Below are positions 18,775 to 61,796 of a stretch of 64,000 nucleotides of DNA, piece by piece. The stretch covers positions 1 to 64,000 of the forward strand of contig JAHKAM010000003.1 of NCBI GenBank assembly GCA_018826515.1, in the 5' to 3' direction. Source of the DNA: Alphaproteobacteria bacterium (GTDB lineage: Bacteria > Pseudomonadota > Alphaproteobacteria > Caulobacterales > Caulobacteraceae). Each line of letters begins with the position of its first letter. Position 1 is the first letter of the stretch. A program made the position numbers and the translations under genes. A model generated the notes under the pieces. It was not told the origin of the DNA and searched no databases. It saw nothing but the letters and a program-made list of their open reading frames with translations.

Positions 18775-19278
18775 ATGGGCGACAAGACCCTTACCGCCGC
18801 CGAGGCCGAGACCGAGTTCTGGGACCACCTCAAGAGGTCGAACACCGGGATGCTGGGCCTCGACCGGCCGGGCTATCACAGCCAGCCGATGACGGCCTAT
18901 CGGGAGGAGGAGACCGGCGTCATCTGGTTCTTCACCCGCGACGACACCGATCTGGCGAAGGACGCCGCTGGCGGGCAGAGCGCGATGTTCACCTATGGCT
19001 CCAAGGACCAGGAGGTCTGGGCCTGCATTCACGGGACCCTGTCGGCAGCGCCGCGCAATCAGGCGGTTATCGACAAGCACTGGAACCCGATCGTCGCCGC
19101 CTGGTACCCTGAGGGTAAGGACGACCCGCATCTGACCCTGCTGCGTTTCGACGCCGACGACGGGCGGATCTGGGTGTCGAAGAAGGGCGTCGTCGGCTTC
19201 TTCTTCGAGGTCGCCAAGGCCAATCTGACCAAGACAGTGCCGGACGCCGGCGGAGTGGCGGACGTGAATTTGCAGTGA
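18775..19278 (+). CDS. Pyridoxamine 5'-phosphate oxidase family (general stress) protein
   Basis: A 167-aa split-barrel flavin-binding type protein, close to the general-stress FMN-binding subgroup. Visible blocks are LKRSNTGMLGLD, QPMTAYREEETGVIWFFT, DQEVWACIHGTLSAAPRNQAVIDKHW in parts, and WYPEGKDDPHLTLLRFD. RBS GGAG lies 9 bases before ATG 18775. FMN or F420 binding is inferred from the family and the reaction is unknown. A heptamer-repeat element begins directly after its stop codon. Confidence 0.85.
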   Translation: MGDKTLTAAEAETEFWDHLKRSNTGMLGLDRPGYHSQPMTAYREEETGVIWFFTRDDTDLAKDAAGGQSAMFTYGSKDQEVWACIHGTLSAAPRNQAVIDKHWNPIVAAWYPEGKDDPHLTLLRFDADDGRIWVSKKGVVGFFFEVAKANLTKTVPDAGGVADVNLQ

Positions 19279-19377
19279 GGGCTTGGGGCTTGGGGCTTGG
19301 GGCTTAGGCAGAGGCGTCGGATCGCTGCCTAAGACCTAAGACCTAAGACCTAAGACCTAAGACCTAAGACCTACCCC
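19279..19377. repeat. Heptamer-arm inverted element between PPOX gene and argF
   Basis: Left array: three GGCTTGG units plus GGCTTAG (19280-19307). Right array: six perfect CTAAGAC units (19329-19370). The innermost parts pair perfectly (CTTAGGCAG 19303-19311 with CTGCCTAAG 19325-19333) around a 13-base loop. The outer arms pair only partly (G-U or mismatches). It fills the whole intergenic space and touches the stop codons of both convergent neighbours. Confidence 0.9.
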
Positions 19378-20292
19378 CTACCCCGCGAAACACCACGCCA
19401 GCACCGCCTTCTGGGCGTGGATGCGGTTCTCGGCCTCATCCCAGACCAGCGACTTCGGCCCGTCAATGACGGCGTCGGTGACCTCCTCGCCCCGGTGGGC
19501 GGGGAGGCAATGCAGGAACACGGCGTCGCTGTCGGCGGCGTCCATCAGGGCGTCGTCGACGCCATAACCCTCGAACGCCTCGAGCCGCTCTTCATAGTCG
19601 CCGTCGCCCATCGACACCCAGGTGTCGGTGACGACCACGTCGGCGCCGCTCACGGCCTCGCGCGGGTCGCTGGTCAGGGTGACGGAATTGCCGCCGCGGG
19701 CGAGGTCGTGGAGGTCGGGATGGAAGTCGGCCGGACAGGCGATGTTGAGGTGGAAGCCCAGCTTCGGCGCGGCGTGGATGAAGCTGTGGCAGACGTTGTT
19801 GCCGTCGCCGACCCAGGCGATGGTCTTGCCGGCGATCGGGCCGCGATGCTCCTCGATGGTCATCAGGTCGGCGAGGATCTGGCACGGGTGCGAGCGGTCC
19901 GTCAGGCCGTTGATCACCGGCACGGTCGCGACGCGGGCGAAACGCTCGACGTCCTCATGGCTGTTGGCGCGGATCATCACGGCGTCGACCATGCGCGACA
20001 GGACGCGGGCCGTGTCCTCCACCGGCTCGCCGCGGCCCAGCTGCATGTCGCCGGCGTTGGCGATGATCGAGGCCCCGCCCAGCTGGCGGATGGCGGCGTC
20101 GAAGCTGAAGCGGGTCCGGGTCGAGTTCTTCTCGAAGATCATCGCCAGAACGCGATCCTTCGCCGGTGCGTCGGCGTCGACCTTGCCTTTCGGCCAGCCC
20201 TTGCGCGCGGCCTTGCGGGCGTGGGCGTCATCGAGGATGGCGCGCAGCTCCTCGGCGGAGAGGCGGTGAAGGTCGAGGAAATGGCGGACCAT
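19378..20292 (-). CDS. argF: Ornithine carbamoyltransferase
   Basis: A 304-aa enzyme with the carbamoyl-phosphate motif [16 protein letters not shown], the ornithine-binding region [27 protein letters not shown], and the catalytic [15 protein letters not shown]. It makes citrulline from ornithine and carbamoyl phosphate in arginine biosynthesis. Its gene follows argD on the same strand; the 151-bp spacer holds an inverted repeat. This order, argD then argF, is standard in alphaproteobacteria and supports an arg operon. Confidence 0.96.
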
Positions 20293-22806: not shown

Positions 22807-23619
22807 TCAGGTCTTCAGCCGCCAGCCCGATTTGAAGACCGCCCAGCAGGCCCAGGCCATGACCAGGGCCAGCAGGCCGCTCATGACCATGCCGATCGCC
22901 AGGCTGCCCTCGGCATTGCCGATGAAGCCGGCCCGGAAGCCGTCGATCAGATAGAAGATGGGGTTGAAGTGGCTGATGGTCGCGAACGGCTCGGGCAGGT
23001 TCTCGACGAGGTAGAAGGTGCCGCTGAGGAAGGTCATCGGCATGATGACGAAATTCTGCACCGCCGCGAGCTGGTCGAATTTCTGGGCCCAGAGGCCGGC
23101 GAAGACCCCCAGCATGCCCATGATCAGACAGGCGATCAGGCCGAACCAAAGGATCAGGCCGAGGTTCGCCACCCCCAGCCGGGCGAAGGGCAGGACGCAG
23201 ATCGCGGTGACGATCCCGACCACCAGACCGCGCGTGGCGGCGCCGAGCGCGAAGCCGATGGTCAGTTCCAGCGGGCTGAGCGGCGGGGTCAGGAAGTCGG
23301 TCGCCGTGTTCATCACCTTGGCCTGGATCAGGCTGGACGAGGCGTTGGCGAAGGCGTTGTTGAGCATGGCCATCATGATCAGGCCGGGCGCGACGAACTC
23401 GGGGAAGGGCGTGCCGTGCAGCGGCGGGCGGGCGCCCTGCAGGGCGACCACGAAGACCAGCATGTAGAGCAGGGTGGTGACCACCGGCCCGGCCACGGTC
23501 TGGGCCCCGACCTTCCAGAAACGGCGGACCTCGCGCAGGTACAGGGTCTGGACGCCGATCCAGTTGACGCCGGCGTAGCTGCGCGGCTGCGGGGGAACGG
23601 TCGGGCTCAGGTCGGTCAT
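22807..23619 (-). CDS. ABC-2 type transporter permease
   Basis: A 270-aa permease with six hydrophobic segments and the ABC-2 signature FNPIFYLIDGFRAGFIG near the C-terminus. The N-terminal block TLYLREVRRFWKVGAQTVAGP resembles the YadH/YhhJ-like permeases, which pair with a YadG-type ATPase. No ATPase gene adjoins it here, so the ATP-binding partner must lie elsewhere. Substrate is unknown. Upstream lies a heptamer-arm element of about 200 bp. Confidence 0.88.
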   Translation of the reverse strand: MTDLSPTVPPQPRSYAGVNWIGVQTLYLREVRRFWKVGAQTVAGPVVTTLLYMLVFVVALQGARPPLHGTPFPEFVAPGLIMMAMLNNAFANASSSLIQAKVMNTATDFLTPPLSPLELTIGFALGAATRGLVVGIVTAICVLPFARLGVANLGLILWFGLIACLIMGMLGVFAGLWAQKFDQLAAVQNFVIMPMTFLSGTFYLVENLPEPFATISHFNPIFYLIDGFRAGFIGNAEGSLAIGMVMSGLLALVMAWACWAVFKSGWRLKT

Positions 23620-23653: not shown

Positions 23654-23855
23654 AGTGGCTAGTGGCTAGTGGCTAGTGGCTGGCCACCGCCTGCGGAGCC
23701 GGAGGTCCGGCGTCGCCCTTCCGCAGGCGGAACCGGAAATCGCCTGCCGCCCCCTCACCCGCCAGCCGGAGACTGCAGCAACCTGCGCCTGCGGAAGGGC
23801 GGCGCGGTCGGCTCCACCGCACAGGCGTCGGCCAGCCACTAGCCACTAGCCACCC
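23654..23855. repeat. Heptamer-arm inverted element upstream of gcrA
   Basis: The left array is four AGTGGCT heptamers (23654-23681) and the right array is AGCCACT, AGCCACT and AGCCAC (23834-23853). A 24-bp stretch (23662-23685 with 23830-23853) is perfectly complementary. The 144-base interior holds further inverted motifs such as CGCCCTTCCGCAGGCG and CCTGCGGAAGGGCG. The interior is shared in part with the element at 24759: GCGGAAGGGCGGCGCGG (23791-23807) is the reverse complement of 24806-24822. Confidence 0.92.
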
Positions 23856-24019: not shown

Positions 24020-24532
24020 ATGACCGCAGGCTGGACTGAAGACCGCGTCGGCGCGCTGAAGAAGCTCTGGCTTGAGGGCCAGTCGGCCAGCCAGATCGCC
24101 AAACAGCTGGGCGGCGGCGTCACCCGCAACGCCGTCATCGGCAAGGTGCACCGCCTCGGCCTGTCGGGCCGGGCCGCCCCGTCGCAGCCGGCGCGCGCCA
24201 CCTTCCGCCCGTCGCGCCCGCGCCCCGCCGCACCGCCGACCCAGGCCCCGTCGGCCCCGCGCCGCATCGAGGCGGTCCAGCCGCGCGCCGTTTCGGCCCC
24301 GTCGGTTCCGGCCCCCATGCCCGACCTGCCCGGCACCGCCACGGTGATGACCCTGGGCGCGCACATGTGCAAATGGCCGATCGGCGACCCGTCCTCGAAC
24401 GAGTTCAGCTTCTGCGGTCGCCGCTCGTCGGAAGGCGTCTATTGCGTCGAGCACGCCCGCGTCGCCTACCAGCCGCAGGTCAAGCGCGGCGGCGCGACGG
24501 ACCTGGCCCGCAGCCTGCGACGCTACATCTGA
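24020..24532 (+). CDS. gcrA: Cell cycle regulator GcrA
   Basis: A 170-aa protein starting MTAGWTEDRVGALKKLWLEG, the GcrA DNA-binding N-terminus, with GGGVTRNAVIGKVHRLGLSG. A Pro/Ala-rich linker spans about 50-110, and the C-terminal sigma-70-interacting domain contains CKWPIGDPSSNEFSFCG and EGVYCVEHARVAYQP. GcrA acts with CcrM methylation to activate division and polarity genes. RBS GGAGGG lies about 8 bases before ATG 24020. Convergent with apaG; two heptamer-arm elements lie downstream. Confidence 0.96.
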   Translation: MTAGWTEDRVGALKKLWLEGQSASQIAKQLGGGVTRNAVIGKVHRLGLSGRAAPSQPARATFRPSRPRPAAPPTQAPSAPRRIEAVQPRAVSAPSVPAPMPDLPGTATVMTLGAHMCKWPIGDPSSNEFSFCGRRSSEGVYCVEHARVAYQPQVKRGGATDLARSLRRYI

Positions 24533-24618
24533 GTGATGAGTGATTAGTGGTTAGTGATTGGCCGCCGCCAGGGCGGGCGATCACCGCGCCAATCACTAAT
24601 CACCAATCACTAACCACC
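24532..24618. repeat. Heptamer-arm inverted element after gcrA
   Basis: Left units AGTGATG, AGTGATT, AGTGGTT, AGTGATT (24532-24559); right units AATCACT, AATCACC, AATCACT, AACCACC (24591-24618). The arms pair well around a 31-base G/C-rich loop. The first unit shares the A of the gcrA stop codon. The unit differs by one to three bases from that of the 23.7-kb element (AGTGGCT). Confidence 0.9.
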
Positions 24619-24758: not shown

Positions 24759-24858
24759 AGTGATTAGTGGCTAGTGGCTGGCCGACGCCCGTGTGACGGC
24801 GTGAACCGCGCCGCCCTTCCGCCGGCTGTGGAGCGGCAGCCACCAATCACCAGCCACT
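24759..24858. repeat. Heptamer-arm inverted element before the apaG stop
   Basis: Left units AGTGATT, AGTGGCT, AGTGGCT (24759-24779); right units AGCCACC, AATCACC, AGCCACT (24838-24858). GGCTGGCCGACGCCCGTG (24776-24793) matches, in inverted orientation and with one mismatch, 23820-23837 of the 23.7-kb element; 24806-24822 matches 23791-23807 exactly. So the two elements are relatives placed head-to-head. The last unit supplies the first base of the apaG stop codon on the minus strand. Confidence 0.9.
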
Positions 24859-31722: not shown

Positions 31723-31785
31723 GGCGGATCTCCTCAGGAGATCCCACCGTCGCGGACAGGAGCGGGTTAGGCAAGGATGGGCGAA

Positions 31786-31949
31786 GGATGAGGGATGAGG
31801 GACAGATTTCCCGGAGCGCTGACCCGAATGACCCTGAGCGGCTTCTGCCCACCGCACCACCCGCCACCAGCCACCTCGTCCCTCTTCCCTCTTCCCTCAT
31901 CCCTCTTCCCTCATCCCTCTTCCCTCATCCCTCTTCCCTCATCCCTCTT
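31786..31949. repeat. Heptamer-arm inverted element with a long right array
   Basis: Left units GGATGAG x2 (31786-31799). Right array of ten uninterrupted heptamers, CCCTCTT or CCCTCAT (31880-31949), alternating from the third onward. The left units pair with the CTCATCC steps of the right array. The loop is about 80 bases. The asymmetry (2 versus 10 units) shows the arrays change copy number independently, as expected for replication slippage. It lies between the start regions of two divergent genes. Confidence 0.88.
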
Positions 31950-31995
31950 CCCTTCACCGGATGACGGGGCGCGCCGAGAGGCCTAGGCTCGGACA

Positions 31996-54104: not shown

Positions 54105-57100
54105 CTAGAACTTCCGGGACAGCATCATGCGCAGGGTGCCTGCGGACTGGTTGCGCGAAAAGCGGGCGCCGAGTTCGCTGGAGACATTCCATCCCTGTCT
54201 GGTCGTGACGTTCAACCCAAGACCTGTGTTGAACTCACTGCGGTCCCACCCCGTCGACTGAACCTGATAGGTCGGTCCCGTGAGCCAGTCCGCGTACTGC
54301 AGGTTCTGGCTTCCGCCGTCCGCAAACTCCCGCCGGTACTCGAAGCGGAAGCTCGGGGCCCAGGTGCTGTCGCGTTCCAGATGGGTCAGGACGTAGCGCA
54401 GGCCGAGCACCCCTTGCAGGGACTCCACATCGCGTTCGGCGTAACTGAGCGCCCACAGCGCCGAACCGGTCTCGGTATAGGCGTCCAATTCAGCGTTCAT
54501 TGTCTCGACCCGGCCGTAGGAGTTGATCCGTCCGCTCGAGAACGCCCGGTCCATACCCATCCCGACGGAGCCGAACATGGCCGAGCCCTCGCGCTGGCCG
54601 GTGACCATGCTGTTGTCGATGCCGACCCGGCGCCGGAGGTCGAACTCCAGGGCGCCGAAGCCCAGCATGGCGTCAAAGTAGACACCGCCCTCAGGCCTCC
54701 AGCTGCCGTAGACCACGCCTGCGAAGTTGGACGAGTCGACACGGGAGTCGTTGCTGCCCACGTCAGCGCGTTCTTCACCGAACCCGCCGCCCATGCCGAA
54801 GTCGAGGGTCGGCGAAATCGGGAAGTCCACGCCCATGCTGATCCCCGACGACTGCATCGAGAATTTCGCCTGGTTGGTCGTCTCGTCACGTTCACCAACG
54901 GTGATCGCGCCGCCGGTCCAGAAGCGTGCCCCGCCAAGAGGCGCGGAGCCAGCGTCACCCGGACCAGCATTCGAGCCGCCAGAGCCCATGCCAGTGGCGT
55001 CGCCCAGACCCGGACCCGAACCGGGGCCGCCGATCGAGCCGTTCGGAGCCGGAGCGAGACCGGCGTTGATCAACATCATGGAGCGCAGCTCTGCACGGTC
55101 AGGATCGACCTGGCCTTGCCCGAATGACTGGCGGCCGCCGATACGGGTCCGCTGGTCCGCTTCCAGACCCCGCTGGGTCAGGCCCGAGTTCATCGTCAGA
55201 CCCATGTTTACGGGCTGATCGCCGGCGCCGGTGTTCAACTGCTCCAGACGACGGCTGAAATTCTCGATCTGGGCGCCGGTGAGGCGGCGGGTCGCAGACG
55301 CCTGGGCGGCGTCCAGCCCACGCACATCCGGATCCTGTGACGGGTCAGGACGGGCAAGGATCGAAAGGCGCAGGACGACCGACCCGGAGTTACCGAACGC
55401 ATCGGTCGCCGTGACGGTGAAGTTGGCGTCTCCCACCTGGTACGAGCTTCCGCTGATATGGCCGGCCGAACTCAGGATGATGCCGGTCGGCAGCGCCCCG
55501 GCAGTCACCGCATAGCTGTAGCTCCCGGCTCCACCCGAGGCGCTGAGCGAGCGGTCGTAGGATACGCCGGCCATGACGTCCGGCAGGGAGGTCGGGGTGA
55601 CCGTAATCGCCGCCGCATTGACCAGGAGGGTCAGATTGACGTCGGAGAAGTAGGGACCGGAACCCGTCGAAGAGTCGGTCACCCGCACCACGATGGGGAA
55701 GCTGCCGACCGCCGTCGGGACGCCTGAAACCACACCCGCCGAAGACAGGGTAATCCCCGCCGGAAGCGGGCCGGTCTGAAGCGTGAAGGTATAGGGACTT
55801 GTTCCGCCCGCACCGACCAACGTCTCGCTGTAGGCAAAGCCACGCTGAGCCGCCGCCAACGTGGCCGTCGCAGTTATGGTCGGAGCCGCGACGATCAGAG
55901 TGAAGGCGTGGGCAGCGGTTACGTCACCCGCTCCGGCGTCTGTGGCCGTTACGGTGAAGTCAAACGACCCGCCCGCCGTCGGGGCGCCGGACAGTTCACC
56001 CGATGAGGACAGGGTGATCCCGGCCGGAAGAGCGCCGGCGGTGACCGCAAAGGTGCAGGGACCGACACAGCCCGTCGCCGAGATCGTGGCGCTGTAGGCT
56101 GATGCGACCACACCGTCCGACAGGGTGGTCGGCGTAACCACCAGCAGCACCACATTGAACGTGATCGTCGCCGTCGTTGACTGATTGCCCGCTGGATCCT
56201 GCGAGGTCACCACGAAGGAGTGCGCGCCGGCGGTCAGTCCGCCTTCAGGGGGAGACGCCTGCGCGCCGTCCAGGGCGCCGGCGTTGCCGCCGGAGATGCT
56301 CCAATTTCCCTGGTTGTCGACGGCGCCGACCCCATAGGTGAGGCTGTCGAGCACGACAGTCATGCGAGAGGCCGGCTCCGCCGTTCCGGTGAAGATCGGG
56401 AAGGCGGTGTTGACGGTGGAGCCTTGCGTCGGACTGGTTACGGTCGGCACGACGGGCGGCACAACATCGAGCTTGAACTCGACCACGGCGGAGGCGTCAG
56501 ACTCATTGCCTGCCTCGTCATGGCTCACGGCGTAGATCGATACAGGCACCTCGCCCACACTCGAGATGCCCAGTTGGGACTGTGCGTTCTGCCCATCGAG
56601 ATCCAGCGTCCAGTTGCCACTCCCATCAGCGCGGGAGCGGCCGATCAGATTGCCTTGCACATTGCTGAGCGCACCTGACGGCGCCGCCGGATTACCCGCT
56701 CCGATGAGGTAGATGTAGACCTCCGAGTCCGGATCCGCCGTGCCCTGAACGAAAGTAACCTTGCGCAGGAGCTGTCCTGAAACGGGGTTGGTGATCACAG
56801 GGGCGTCCGGCGCCACCGTGTCGACCTCAAACGTCCATTCGTCAGTGGATCCCGACAAGCCGCCTGCGTTGGATGCGTAGGCCGAAATCCGATGTTCACC
56901 ATCAGCCAGCGCCGCTGTCGTGAATGAGAATCGCCTCCCCCCCACCGGCATGTTTGCCGGTCCGACCTCGACTCCATCAATCAGGATCATGACGGCGGCG
57001 CTATTGCTGGTCGTGCCGATGAAGGTCGGGGTTGCATCTGAATAGGCGCTTCGCAGTCCTTCAAATTGAGGTTGCGATGGGGCTTCGAGATAGTTGAACT

Positions 57101-58865
57101 CATTGTCAGACCCGGAGACGCTGACCCCGGACGCTGTCTCGACGACCACATAGGCAGGACCGCTTCCGGCCGGAGCCGTGGCGGTGATCTGCGTGACGCT
57201 GTCCACGGTGAAACCGGTCGCCGGAGTGACGCCAAAAAGGACACTCGTGGCGCCGGTGAAATCGGTGCCCGTGAGGGTCACGACGGTGCCGCCCGCGACA
57301 GGTCCCGCAACGGGAGACAGGGATGTCACCACCGGTGCGGACACATAGGTGAAGTCATTGCCCGCGCCAGCAATGGCGCTGGTTCCGCCGGGGGTCGTAA
57401 CGGTTACCTCGACCGTGCCGGCGCCCGCAGGCGCTGTCGCAGACATTTGGGTTGCGCTCAGGACGGTAAAGGCAGAGGCGGCATTGGCGCCGAAGCTGAC
57501 GCCCGTGGCGCCGGTGAAATCAGTGCCGGTCAAGGTCACAACGGTGCTGCCGGCGGCAGGTCCGCTTGCGGGTGACAGAGACGCCACAGTCGGCGCCGCC
57601 ACATAGGTGAAGTCATTGCCGGCGCCAGCAGTGGCGCTGCTGCCGTTGGCGGTGGTGACCGTAACATCGACCGTGCCTGTTCCGGCCGGTGCGGTCGCGG
57701 TGATTTCCGTCGCGCTAACGACCGTAAAGGCGGATGCGGCGGCGCCGCCGAAGGTGACCCCGGTAGCGTCGGTGAAGTCGGCGCCCGTCAAGGTCACAGC
57801 CGTGCCGCCATTCGCAGGTCCGGCGGCGGGCGACAGAGACGTCAGCGTCGGTGCATTCGCGGGGATAAAACCATCGCAAACCAGCGCGCGGATCTGGGCG
57901 ATCTTGGCATAGAAGCGGGCAACCGTGCCGGGAATCTCAGCCTCTTCGTCTGGCGTGAACGGGTTGTCGAAATCCGGGCAAAAAGCCTGCGCAAGCAGTT
58001 GCTTCAGTTCGTCGGAATCGCAGGCGGGCAGATCCGAGGGGGCATCCTGGGCGGCCTTTTGGGCTTCGAATGCGGCCGCGCCATCGACGGCGAGTTTGTC
58101 CTCCGCCACCTCAACCGCTGTTTTCGCATCATTGTAGGCCGCCAAGGCTTCAGGCGACGGGAACCGGGTTTCCGCGAGCAGGCTGGGCGCACCCTGGGCC
58201 ACAGCCCCATTGTAGGTGTTCAACGCCGAGTCGCGGTAGGTCTTGAGTTTGTCCAGAAGCGCGGCCTTCAGAACATCCTTGAGGATCTGATCAAGCCCGA
58301 ACGGGGCGCCTTCGGTGAGCGAAAAGCCGATGCTGCCAGACAGATTGCTGACGTACTCCCCGGCAAAATTGCGAATGGCCGAGTCGGGGTTATTCACCAG
58401 ATCTGCCCAGGTGACCCGCCTTTCAGGCGTGAGCAGGATGAGCCCCCCCTGATAGGCTCGTTCCGTAACGTCCCTTACCACCTCAAGGGCTGTCACATAG
58501 ACGTACCACCGGATGACGTCGTCGGCTGTATAGGTCTTTGTGACGGTGACCGAGGCGTCGAGGTTCGCCTTGGCGACCACCAGGGCGGCCCGCGCGGCGG
58601 TCAGTTCCGCGTCGCTGGCGACCGCCTTCAGTCGGGCAGCCTCATAGGCGACATCGAGAGGATGGGGACCGTAGGGGCGGCCGTTCTCGAGGTTGTCATC
58701 CGCATAGCAGCGAAACGGACCATCGAAGGAGAGGTCTGACCGGCCTCGCGGATCGATTCCCAGCTCTTCGATCCCTGCGAACGCGCTGCCGACCCCCAGG
58801 GCGCTGAACAGGGCGACCAGGCCCAGGAACTTCAGGCCCCGCATACAGGAAATAAATACGCTCAT
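54105..58865 (-). CDS. Giant autotransporter with IPT/TIG and Ig-like domains
   Basis: From ATG 58865 (1586 aa; a TTG/ATG further up would give 1618 aa). Signal peptide (FLGLVALFSALGVGSAFA). N-terminal helical region of about 310 residues; three successive IPT/TIG domains (nt about 57850-57090) that share blocks such as SLSPASGPAAGSTVVTLTG and AGAGNDFTYV; two or three bacterial Ig-like domains (TADPDSEVYIYL, GTAEPASRMTVVLD); three putative-Ig repeats with LPAGITLSSSGELSG-type motifs; then a Gly-rich linker and a C-terminal autotransporter barrel (nt about 54940-54105) ending MLSRKF, with the final Phe of the beta-signal. Likely a surface adhesin. Flanked by tRNA fragments and AT-rich DNA. Confidence 0.92.
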   Translation of the reverse strand: MSVFISCMRGLKFLGLVALFSALGVGSAFAGIEELGIDPRGRSDLSFDGPFRCYADDNLENGRPYGPHPLDVAYEAARLKAVASDAELTAARAALVVAKANLDASVTVTKTYTADDVIRWYVYVTALEVVRDVTERAYQGGLILLTPERRVTWADLVNNPDSAIRNFAGEYVSNLSGSIGFSLTEGAPFGLDQILKDVLKAALLDKLKTYRDSALNTYNGAVAQGAPSLLAETRFPSPEALAAYNDAKTAVEVAEDKLAVDGAAAFEAQKAAQDAPSDLPACDSDELKQLLAQAFCPDFDNPFTPDEEAEIPGTVARFYAKIAQIRALVCDGFIPANAPTLTSLSPAAGPANGGTAVTLTGADFTDATGVTFGGAAASAFTVVSATEITATAPAGTGTVDVTVTTANGSSATAGAGNDFTYVAAPTVASLSPASGPAAGSTVVTLTGTDFTGATGVSFGANAASAFTVLSATQMSATAPAGAGTVEVTVTTPGGTSAIAGAGNDFTYVSAPVVTSLSPVAGPVAGGTVVTLTGTDFTGATSVLFGVTPATGFTVDSVTQITATAPAGSGPAYVVVETASGVSVSGSDNEFNYLEAPSQPQFEGLRSAYSDATPTFIGTTSNSAAVMILIDGVEVGPANMPVGGRRFSFTTAALADGEHRISAYASNAGGLSGSTDEWTFEVDTVAPDAPVITNPVSGQLLRKVTFVQGTADPDSEVYIYLIGAGNPAAPSGALSNVQGNLIGRSRADGSGNWTLDLDGQNAQSQLGISSVGEVPVSIYAVSHDEAGNESDASAVVEFKLDVVPPVVPTVTSPTQGSTVNTAFPIFTGTAEPASRMTVVLDSLTYGVGAVDNQGNWSISGGNAGALDGAQASPPEGGLTAGAHSFVVTSQDPAGNQSTTATITFNVVLLVVTPTTLSDGVVASAYSATISATGCVGPCTFAVTAGALPAGITLSSSGELSGAPTAGGSFDFTVTATDAGAGDVTAAHAFTLIVAAPTITATATLAAAQRGFAYSETLVGAGGTSPYTFTLQTGPLPAGITLSSAGVVSGVPTAVGSFPIVVRVTDSSTGSGPYFSDVNLTLLVNAAAITVTPTSLPDVMAGVSYDRSLSASGGAGSYSYAVTAGALPTGIILSSAGHISGSSYQVGDANFTVTATDAFGNSGSVVLRLSILARPDPSQDPDVRGLDAAQASATRRLTGAQIENFSRRLEQLNTGAGDQPVNMGLTMNSGLTQRGLEADQRTRIGGRQSFGQGQVDPDRAELRSMMLINAGLAPAPNGSIGGPGSGPGLGDATGMGSGGSNAGPGDAGSAPLGGARFWTGGAITVGERDETTNQAKFSMQSSGISMGVDFPISPTLDFGMGGGFGEERADVGSNDSRVDSSNFAGVVYGSWRPEGGVYFDAMLGFGALEFDLRRRVGIDNSMVTGQREGSAMFGSVGMGMDRAFSSGRINSYGRVETMNAELDAYTETGSALWALSYAERDVESLQGVLGLRYVLTHLERDSTWAPSFRFEYRREFADGGSQNLQYADWLTGPTYQVQSTGWDRSEFNTGLGLNVTTRQGWNVSSELGARFSRNQSAGTLRMMLSRKF

Positions 58866-58961
58866 GGACACTACCAAAAACAGGAAGCGCCATACCCCTG
58901 TCACCAAGACAGAAACGCACGCAACAGAAATGCAGAGGCTCACCAAACAGGGCGAAGCCAC

Positions 58962-61675: not shown

Positions 61676-61680
61676 AGCGA

Positions 61681-61772
61681 GGCAGCAGGCAGTAGTCAGC
61701 AGGCGACAGGAAGTTGGGGCTGCCGGCTTCGCCCGGACACCTCCTGCTGCCTGATTCCTGCTGCCTGCTGCC
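61681..61772. repeat. Heptamer-arm inverted element between metK and trmB
   Basis: Left units GGCAGCA, GGCAGTA, GTCAGCA, GGCGACA (61681-61708). Right units TCCTGCT, GCCTGAT, TCCTGCT, GCCTGCT (61742-61769) plus GCC. The arms pair with a few mismatches around a 33-base loop. It starts 5 bases after the metK stop and lies within a probable operon. Confidence 0.88.
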
Positions 61773-61796
61773 TTCATCGCGGCTATAGCGCCCGCC

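Follow-up and report, generated by a model that had tools for sequence, protein, structure and literature searches.

Our analysis points to a group of intergenic hairpin loci in Brevundimonas, built of two facing arrays of 7-nt units, in which the unit at a fixed site differs between species on both arms and the period, polarity and position are kept. These loci are, in our opinion, best explained as hairpins, mostly situated at the 3' ends of genes, with arms that are renewed at the DNA level through slippage and template switching, combined with spread between loci; we assign this explanation a probability of about one half. It is from the comparison of sequences that slippage and switching are proposed here.

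Facing heptamer arrays in the window and in the genus

The window (the whole analysed stretch of 64,000 nucleotides) belongs to a draft genome, designated G000, of 3,250,273 bases in 94 contigs. The nearest relatives of its GcrA were found in Brevundimonas (B. alba, 94%; B. denitrificans, 99% over residues 1-70), and the genome was therefore treated as a member of this genus. Genes were called with a custom codon-score ORF caller, not with a published program. The elements of the window, together with the parts of the largest of them, are as follows.

19276..19375, no strand: element that takes up the space between two convergent stop codons, with GGGGCTT units on the left and AGGTCTT units on the right
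23654..23853, no strand: largest element (main copy), facing AGTGGCT arrays enclosing an inverted dimer of core A
23654..23681, plus strand: G-rich left arm of the main copy, 4 units of AGTGGCT
23668..23732, plus strand: core A copy 1 with adjoining units, partial (35.3 bits)
23769..23847, minus strand: core A copy 2 with adjoining units, in the opposite orientation (48.3 bits)
23834..23853, minus strand: C-rich right arm of the main copy, reverse-complementary to the left arm, 2.9 units
24020..24532, plus strand: gcrA (Pfam GcrA, 180.7 bits), the anchor for orthologous sites
24529..24617, no strand: element located at the stop codon of gcrA, with AGTGATT/AGTGGTT arms and a loop of 29 nt
24759..24857, no strand: element beside apaG, containing core A (+)
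31782..31954, no strand: element between divergent genes, with GGATGAG units on the left and, on the right, 11.4 units in which CCTCTTC and CCTCATC alternate
61680..61776, no strand: element 4 nt past the stop codon of S-adenosylmethionine synthetase, AGGCAGC units

The initial annotation had described six loci of one architecture, and the facing arrays are real, as period-7 arrays are present at all six of them. Its statement that the units are locus-specific is supported at 19.3, 31.8 and 61.7 kb, the only places of the other unit families, but three of the six loci share AGTGRYT. The claimed complementarity of the arms is strong in the main copy, where 24 bp pair perfectly (23662-23685 with 23830-23853) within a 32-nt, 94% inverted repeat; however, the pairing is only partial at 19.3 and 31.8 kb, because the arms of the former are unequal and the right arm of the latter alternates two units.

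The main copy is flanked by an ABC-2 membrane gene (22807-23619, minus strand) on one side and by gcrA (plus strand) on the other. As annotated earlier, it shares interior sequence with the element at 24.76 kb (67 nt in common, 84%), and this likeness is due to the presence of the same core A in both. A second inverted core A dimer was found in genome G117. The 24.76-kb copy was missed by our array detector and was recovered with a repeat search and the core model.

At 19.3 kb, the stop codon of an OTCase-like gene (19378-19380) falls within a heptamer array, so that the element appears to supply the end of that gene. The same site in B. alba, inspected by eye, has no element, and three bases separate the two stop codons. 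The window also contains a 258-bp tandem repeat (57246-57841; 2.3 copies, 77% matches) within a 1618-codon minus-strand ORF (54105-58961). A scan of the whole window against Rfam returned a tRNA as the sole match above the curated threshold, and no element was matched.

Exact-period runs of at least 14 matches were counted in the window three times at period 7 and not at all at periods 4-6 and 8-11; at longer periods, there were one each at 12, 15 and 21 and three at 14. The larger samples were searched with a detector of imperfect tandem arrays of a given period facing a complementary array. In 1,613,800 bases of Brevundimonas (122 loci, with the duplicates L121-L150 removed), many of which were picked for their elements, so that this set and the 126-element set used below give period ratios and not densities, 112 facing arrays were found at period 7, 27 at period 14, one each at periods 5 and 9 and none at the remaining periods within 4-15. 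The period-14 arrays are mostly the same elements with alternating units, and the sole period-9 array overlaps an element of the GGGGTGT type. The fixed period of seven noticed in the initial annotation is thus enriched over the neighbouring periods of 5-9, and the tandem 7-nt repeats exceed chance length by the criterion used for heptanucleotide long simple sequence repeats (LSSRs).

The stretches of G000 itself were mostly chosen at AGTGGCT matches, and for this reason the genome-wide proportion of other units is not given by the sample; those chosen in this way contained 20 facing arrays at period 7, three at period 14 and one at period 5. Blind stretches of the same genome (271,883 bases) contained one at period 7, with a second at a slightly looser score, and none at other periods, which indicates that the elements are clustered and not uniformly distributed. 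The dnaA/dnaN neighbourhood (L095:1-20000 on G000:C60) has five facing-array places in 20 kb, against one in the 271,883 blind bases.

Period-7 facing arrays were absent from three control sets: other genera of the family (309,408 bases; one array at period 5), Caulobacterales GcrA loci (311,085 bases; none at other periods) and other alphaproteobacteria (944,335 bases; one array at period 8). A Caulobacteraceae MAG without a genus label (L004) carries a period-7 facing array. Triple AGTGRYT units were revealed in 7/199 genomes of the family, all within the genus of the window, and in 3/398 genomes of the phylum, one of which lies outside the genus and has 2 matches. That the elements are products of chance or of assembly can hardly be credited. 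The draft state of G000 (94 contigs) is the only point in favour of an artefact, but dinucleotide shuffles (five per sequence in seven sequence sets) gave no facing arrays at periods 6-8, and the dnaA-dnaN site is filled in independent genomes, including the single-contig G168 and G189. The blind sets of G168 (7 stretches) and G117 (4 stretches) that entered these comparisons are small.

Anatomy and position behind stop codons

The elements have a median length of 115 nt, with arms of about 30 nt each and a median paired stretch of 25 nt (110 elements). The left (5') arm is richer in G than in C in 126/126 elements. Among these, 31 left-arm consensus units were distinguished (close variants being counted separately); RGTG units were found in 30/35 elements of G000 and in 96/126 overall.

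The elements of G000 (35) lie in 14 convergent, 18 tandem and three divergent gaps, and none overlaps a gene by more than 40 nt. In 31/35 cases, an element end was no more than 20 nt away from the 3' end of a CDS, against 90/700 random placements, in this sample drawn mostly from AGTGGCT-chosen stretches and counted, as for the other genomes, without repeated elements. Elsewhere, elements this close to the 3' end of a gene made up 10/12 in G168, 7/14 in G117 and 37/49 in other orthologous regions. Convergent gaps were filled to within 20 nt of both stop codons in 11/14 cases, and the elements may therefore represent a type of gene boundary that has been overlooked. The main copy is one of the three divergent-gap exceptions that are not at a 3' end. 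A preference for a particular stop codon was considered and discarded, as the excess of TAG (17/42 abutting genes versus 150/561 of all genes, p 0.046) is too weak.

Such a position might be expected if the pairing of the arms were kept by selection on the transcript, with the elements acting as intrinsic terminators or stabilisers of 3' ends. Besides the abutment to stop codons, this reading draws on the gene context, since convergent gaps hold 14/35 elements but make up 39/236 of all gaps of at least 120 nt, and divergent gaps hold 3/35 but make up 79/236 (the remaining 118 are tandem). The mean predicted fold is -67.7 kcal/mol (a value without a shuffle control), and in divergent contexts G-U pairs outnumber A-C mismatches 16 to 6 on the plus strand as given, although the transcribed strand is undefined there. 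However, the antisense strand folds equally well (-69.0), and the counts are balanced both in convergent contexts (G-U 31, A-C 30) and on the sense strand in tandem contexts (G-U 42, A-C 43), so that the selection for arm pairing assumed in the initial annotation is unsupported in its RNA-level form. A terminator is further contradicted by the lack of a U-tract in the 20 nt downstream of 58 tandem elements (T 0.09-0.26 per position), and a conserved RNA structure in core A by RNAalifold, which gave 15 pairs, one double change and a covariation term of -0.26. On balance, we consider selection on the transcript quite improbable as the cause. A strand-specific core A was also tried and rejected (12 copies in sense and 19 in antisense orientation, p 0.28).

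Change of the unit at fixed sites and agreement between the arms

The anchor upstream of gcrA was found in 15/27 sequences, representing 14 distinct loci after G205 was merged with the identical B. denitrificans sequence L056. Facing arrays are present in 10 of the 14, with six unit types; here and at the dnaA-dnaN site, the grouping into types is our own.

AGTGGCT: the window and G205
AGTGGCG/T: G273
GGTGRYT: G168, G256 and G233
AGGGTCG: G227
AGGGATT/G: G272
GGGGTGT-like: G271 and G186

No facing arrays were found upstream of gcrA in B. alba and B. bacteroides; G269 has a single array there, and G224 is cut by the contig end. The second site, the dnaA-dnaN gap (the two genes were assigned with Pfam), had both anchors in 17 genomes and facing arrays in 12 of them, with seven unit types, the arrays of G186 and G275 passing only at looser settings; none were detected in G037, G205, G240, G269 and G058. 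The interior word TGTGGA(T/C)AA, which we take to be DnaA-box-like, occurs at this site in eight genomes, seven of which have arrays, of four unit types. The units also vary between sites within a single genome. Comparison of the orthologous intergenic regions at both sites therefore reveals presence or absence as well as changes of the unit, and where the unit differs between species it does so on both arms, with period, polarity and position kept.

Two other observations concern these sites and their surroundings. Another inverted intergenic element of about 150-200 bp, of the CTCCCTCCCC...GGGGAGGGAG type, was found in L213 (G205), L218 (G269), L220 (G058) and L015; it sits in the dnaA-dnaN gap or upstream of gcrA in species without a heptamer element there. 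In addition, the gap next to dnaN (L095:769-872 and its orthologs) is an insertion hot spot: it holds heptamer elements in G000, G037, G189 and G117 and about 380-1600 bp of unrelated sequence in 12 relatives, and G275 has both.

Many of the elements have an interior in common. Core A, of about 56 nt, was shared by 20/32 elements of G000 at the chosen cut-off, and an alignment of 20 of its cores and one from B. denitrificans (A2) had a mean column identity of 81%. A model (R1) of core A with adjoining units, whose weak matches may rest on the arm units that it takes in, gave 85 rows at E of 0.01 or below among at most 150 scored candidates in G000. As rows recur on both strands, these correspond to 48 distinct places, with the main copy contributing two, one from each half; 36 places scored at least 46 bits. 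Across the genus, with at most 34 candidates scored per genome, 37/131 genomes had a match at 1e-3 and 20/131 a best E below 1e-10. Upstream of gcrA, core A occurs together with RGTGRYT arms and is missing from loci that have other units; at the gcrA-apaG site it is in the plus orientation in the window and in the minus orientation in G205, G227, G272, G256, G233 and G186. The dispersed core, the placement at 3' ends and the replacement of units at orthologous sites were overlooked in the initial annotation.

The genomes differ in their dialect of the unit. In triple units, counted with overlapping matches, G168 has 75 GGTGRTT and no AGTGRTT, and G000 has 3 and 55, respectively; 10 of the 15 genomes with at least 10 matches are at least 90% of a single type. 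Of the 29 genomes that had a match, the table comprised 26, three single-match genomes being omitted; chi-square values are descriptive only, and the reversed-pattern control is not a null, as reversing the pattern again yields a TTRGTGG array.

The dispersal and patchiness of the elements might alternatively be due to a non-autonomous, MITE-like family with heptamer arrays as terminal inverted repeats, mobilised by some transposase with a preference for insertion behind stop codons; differences of the unit at one site would then be successive replacements by different subfamilies. The 36 strong among 48 places of core A in G000, the matches in other genomes of the genus, the patchy presence and the empty sites (at 19.3 kb in B. 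alba, and at the gcrA stop codon in G168, G272, G256, G233 and other relatives) speak for it. Against it, no target duplication was seen by eye when the gcrA-stop site was compared with empty relatives, and the 28 cores of G000 have a mean identity of 73% and a maximum of 90%. Same-site cores of different species are 0.55-0.84 identical, not above these paralogs (mean 0.73); together, the values suggest that interiors change fast and that there was no recent burst. An autonomous parent with a split core A was sought in 134 Brevundimonas loci, and the 10 lone half-core matches, inspected by eye, included no left-right pair around a longer insert. One element, used as a query, had no match among plasmid and phage records, collections that may omit near genomes. 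The draft genome (94 contigs) has no match to Y1_Tnp, which is present in 4/131 genomes of the genus; an origin from REP elements with their RAYT was accordingly rejected, and the REP-associated tyrosine transposase considered in the initial annotation was not encountered in G000. We regard a MITE-like family as possible, though rather unlikely.

Further observations that bear on renewal at the DNA level come from the arms themselves. Across 126 elements, the pairing score of cognate arms was 19.4, against 9.9 for non-cognate arms, and in the 30 elements with non-RGTG units it was 17.4 against 7.4; since the elements were detected by pairing, these gaps are partly built in, and the test of unit order is less affected. 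In that test, the order of unit variants was mirrored between the arms, with 0.68 of units identical in register versus 0.40 after shuffling (62 elements); with the register left free, the score was 19.4 against 17.7, and 96/126 elements were above the control. Among RGTG elements of a single genome, the cognate advantage is small in G000 (19.4 against 17.1) and G168 (21.1 against 20.4) and large in G117 (21.8 against 14.5). The consensus units of the two arms are exactly equal in only 55/126 elements.

Under the preferred explanation of self-renewing arms, replication slippage in 7-nt steps would lengthen or shorten each arm, and the polymerase, by switching templates within the extruded hairpin, would copy one arm onto the other, which would keep the arms matched, invert the spacer and form inverted dimers. 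Arm homogenisation and spacer inversion by template switching between inverted repeats are described in PMC8604942, and PMC8794818 states that it is able to create and repair stems. The matched arms, the mirrored order, the inverted core at gcrA-apaG and the inverted dimers can be read as signs of template switching. The mismatched arms at 19.3 and 31.8 kb could be intermediate states, with one arm changed and not yet copied. The dispersed core A and the dialects require exchange between loci, as local events alone are insufficient; a second process, either ectopic recombination or low-level transposition, may spread the AGTGRYT/core A type and so produce the dialects of the genomes. The replacement of units could instead be a replacement of whole elements, in view of the association of core A with RGTGRYT arms upstream of gcrA. 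Copying by slippage, as put forward in the initial annotation, fits these observations, and the unknown enzyme that it offered as the other choice is neither required nor excluded by them. Judging by their position, the elements probably act as two-way transcript-end hairpins or as insulators between abutting genes; tolerance of insertions behind stop codons would give the same placement.

Wider occurrence and comparison with known systems

Similar arrays occur in contigs labelled as viral, of which we analysed 95 stretches (816,536 bases) picked solely by their AGTGRYT arrays. Selection by one heptamer enriches array-rich contigs, and the following results are thus a lead and not a census. 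After the removal of duplicates, 80 facing arrays were counted at period 7, against two at period 8, three at period 10 and one at period 11; with RGTG-word arms excluded, there were 21 period-7 arrays in 13 contigs, against 1, 2 and 1 at the same periods, with units such as GATTTTG, AGTTGCC and AATGACG. Facing arrays were present in 36 of 80 scanned stretches, at a G+C content of 0.32 to 0.71, and none of the facing arrays of the 80 stretches contained core A. In a set of 81 stretches, the left arm was richer in G than in C in 44/47 arrays (near seed variants and near-identical contigs included), and 38/67 elements lay at most 20 nt from the 3' end of an ORF versus 301/1120 random placements, as determined with a cruder longest-ORF caller and with 11 overlaps. 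Reversed polarity, with a C-rich 5' arm, is a rare exception (L270:9291-9588).

These data allow us to propose, as a doubtful generalisation, that bacteria at large possess a class of self-renewing loci with facing heptamer arrays, in which a copying activity working in a 7-nt register rewrites the unit on both arms at a fixed place and conserves the 7-nt step, the polarity with the G strand toward the centre and, often, the place behind stop codons. The elements bear on an old problem of stem evolution, namely how a long hairpin replaces its whole sequence with the arms still matched; this seems to occur at several sites in one genus. As the repeat step is fixed at several sites, slippage and template switching could be measured across strains. 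The strict step of seven across dissimilar units calls for a physical explanation that lies in the machinery of replication. The polarity, with the G strand toward the centre, resembles that of head-to-head fused telomeres. In Caulobacter, long intergenic repeats with GANTC sites were reportedly found by Chen and Shapiro in 2003.

The initial annotation took heptamer repeats to be undescribed, as far as it knew, as facing arms with locus-specific units, but facing heptamer arrays are in print for two other groups. In Xanthomonas, the passages of Rehm et al. (2015; PMC4692102) describe GGGAATC arrays that form convergent pairs in two genomes (70 and 75 pairs), mostly intergenic, on average 28 nt from the 5' neighbouring ORF, and in 83% of cases in the same gene context in the sister species. 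Period 7, a G-rich unit, convergent pairing and a mostly intergenic position are common to those arrays and to the 126 elements described here. According to the same passages, that study sought only arrays containing GGGAATC and interprets them as quadruplexes. A corresponding origin of the present elements, as simple repeats forming G-quadruplexes, could draw on the G runs in the units AGGGATT, AGGGTCG and GGGGTGT and on the four-run G4 motif in an arm of 22/126 elements, but we hold it to be most improbable, as none of the 96 RGTG-type elements, the majority of the sample, has a G4 motif; a GGGNATC-like unit with quadruplex potential is not characteristic of the sample. In contrast to the Xanthomonas arrays as presented in those passages, the elements described here have 31 left-arm units, share a core, differ in the unit from species to species at one site and, in the majority, contain no quadruplex motif.

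For Geobacter metallireducens, passages of PMC2700814 describe tandem heptanucleotide sites with the consensus MTYCTGA, drawn as strand-switching sequences, in four classes that mostly occur in pairs; they interpret them as regulator sites of one consensus and contain no unit replacement. Seven is the commonest category of long simple repeats in most genomes according to Mrazek et al. (2007), who proposed that a 7-nt polymerase contact favours slippage (both as described in passages of PMC4679880). The heptanucleotide LSSR and TAACTGA repeats treated in those passages are direct arrays, apart from one inverted TAACTGA case, unlike the facing arms here.

Like REP elements, REPtrons and MITEs, as characterised in passages of PMC3733652 and PMC10969869, our elements are dispersed, intergenic and palindromic. 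Unlike them, they are accompanied by no Y1_Tnp gene in G000, and their arms are heptamer arrays with locus-specific units; where MITEs have fixed terminal inverted repeats, here the dispersed core A is bordered by arms variable in length and unit. In the open literature that we searched, with subscription papers mostly outside it, no account of such elements in Brevundimonas and none of unit replacement at a fixed site was found. Facing heptamer arrays are therefore not new, given the Xanthomonas and Geobacter reports; within the literature searched, the replacement of the unit at a fixed site, with step, polarity and place retained, appears to be new, and so are the dispersed core and the abutment to stop codons in this genus.
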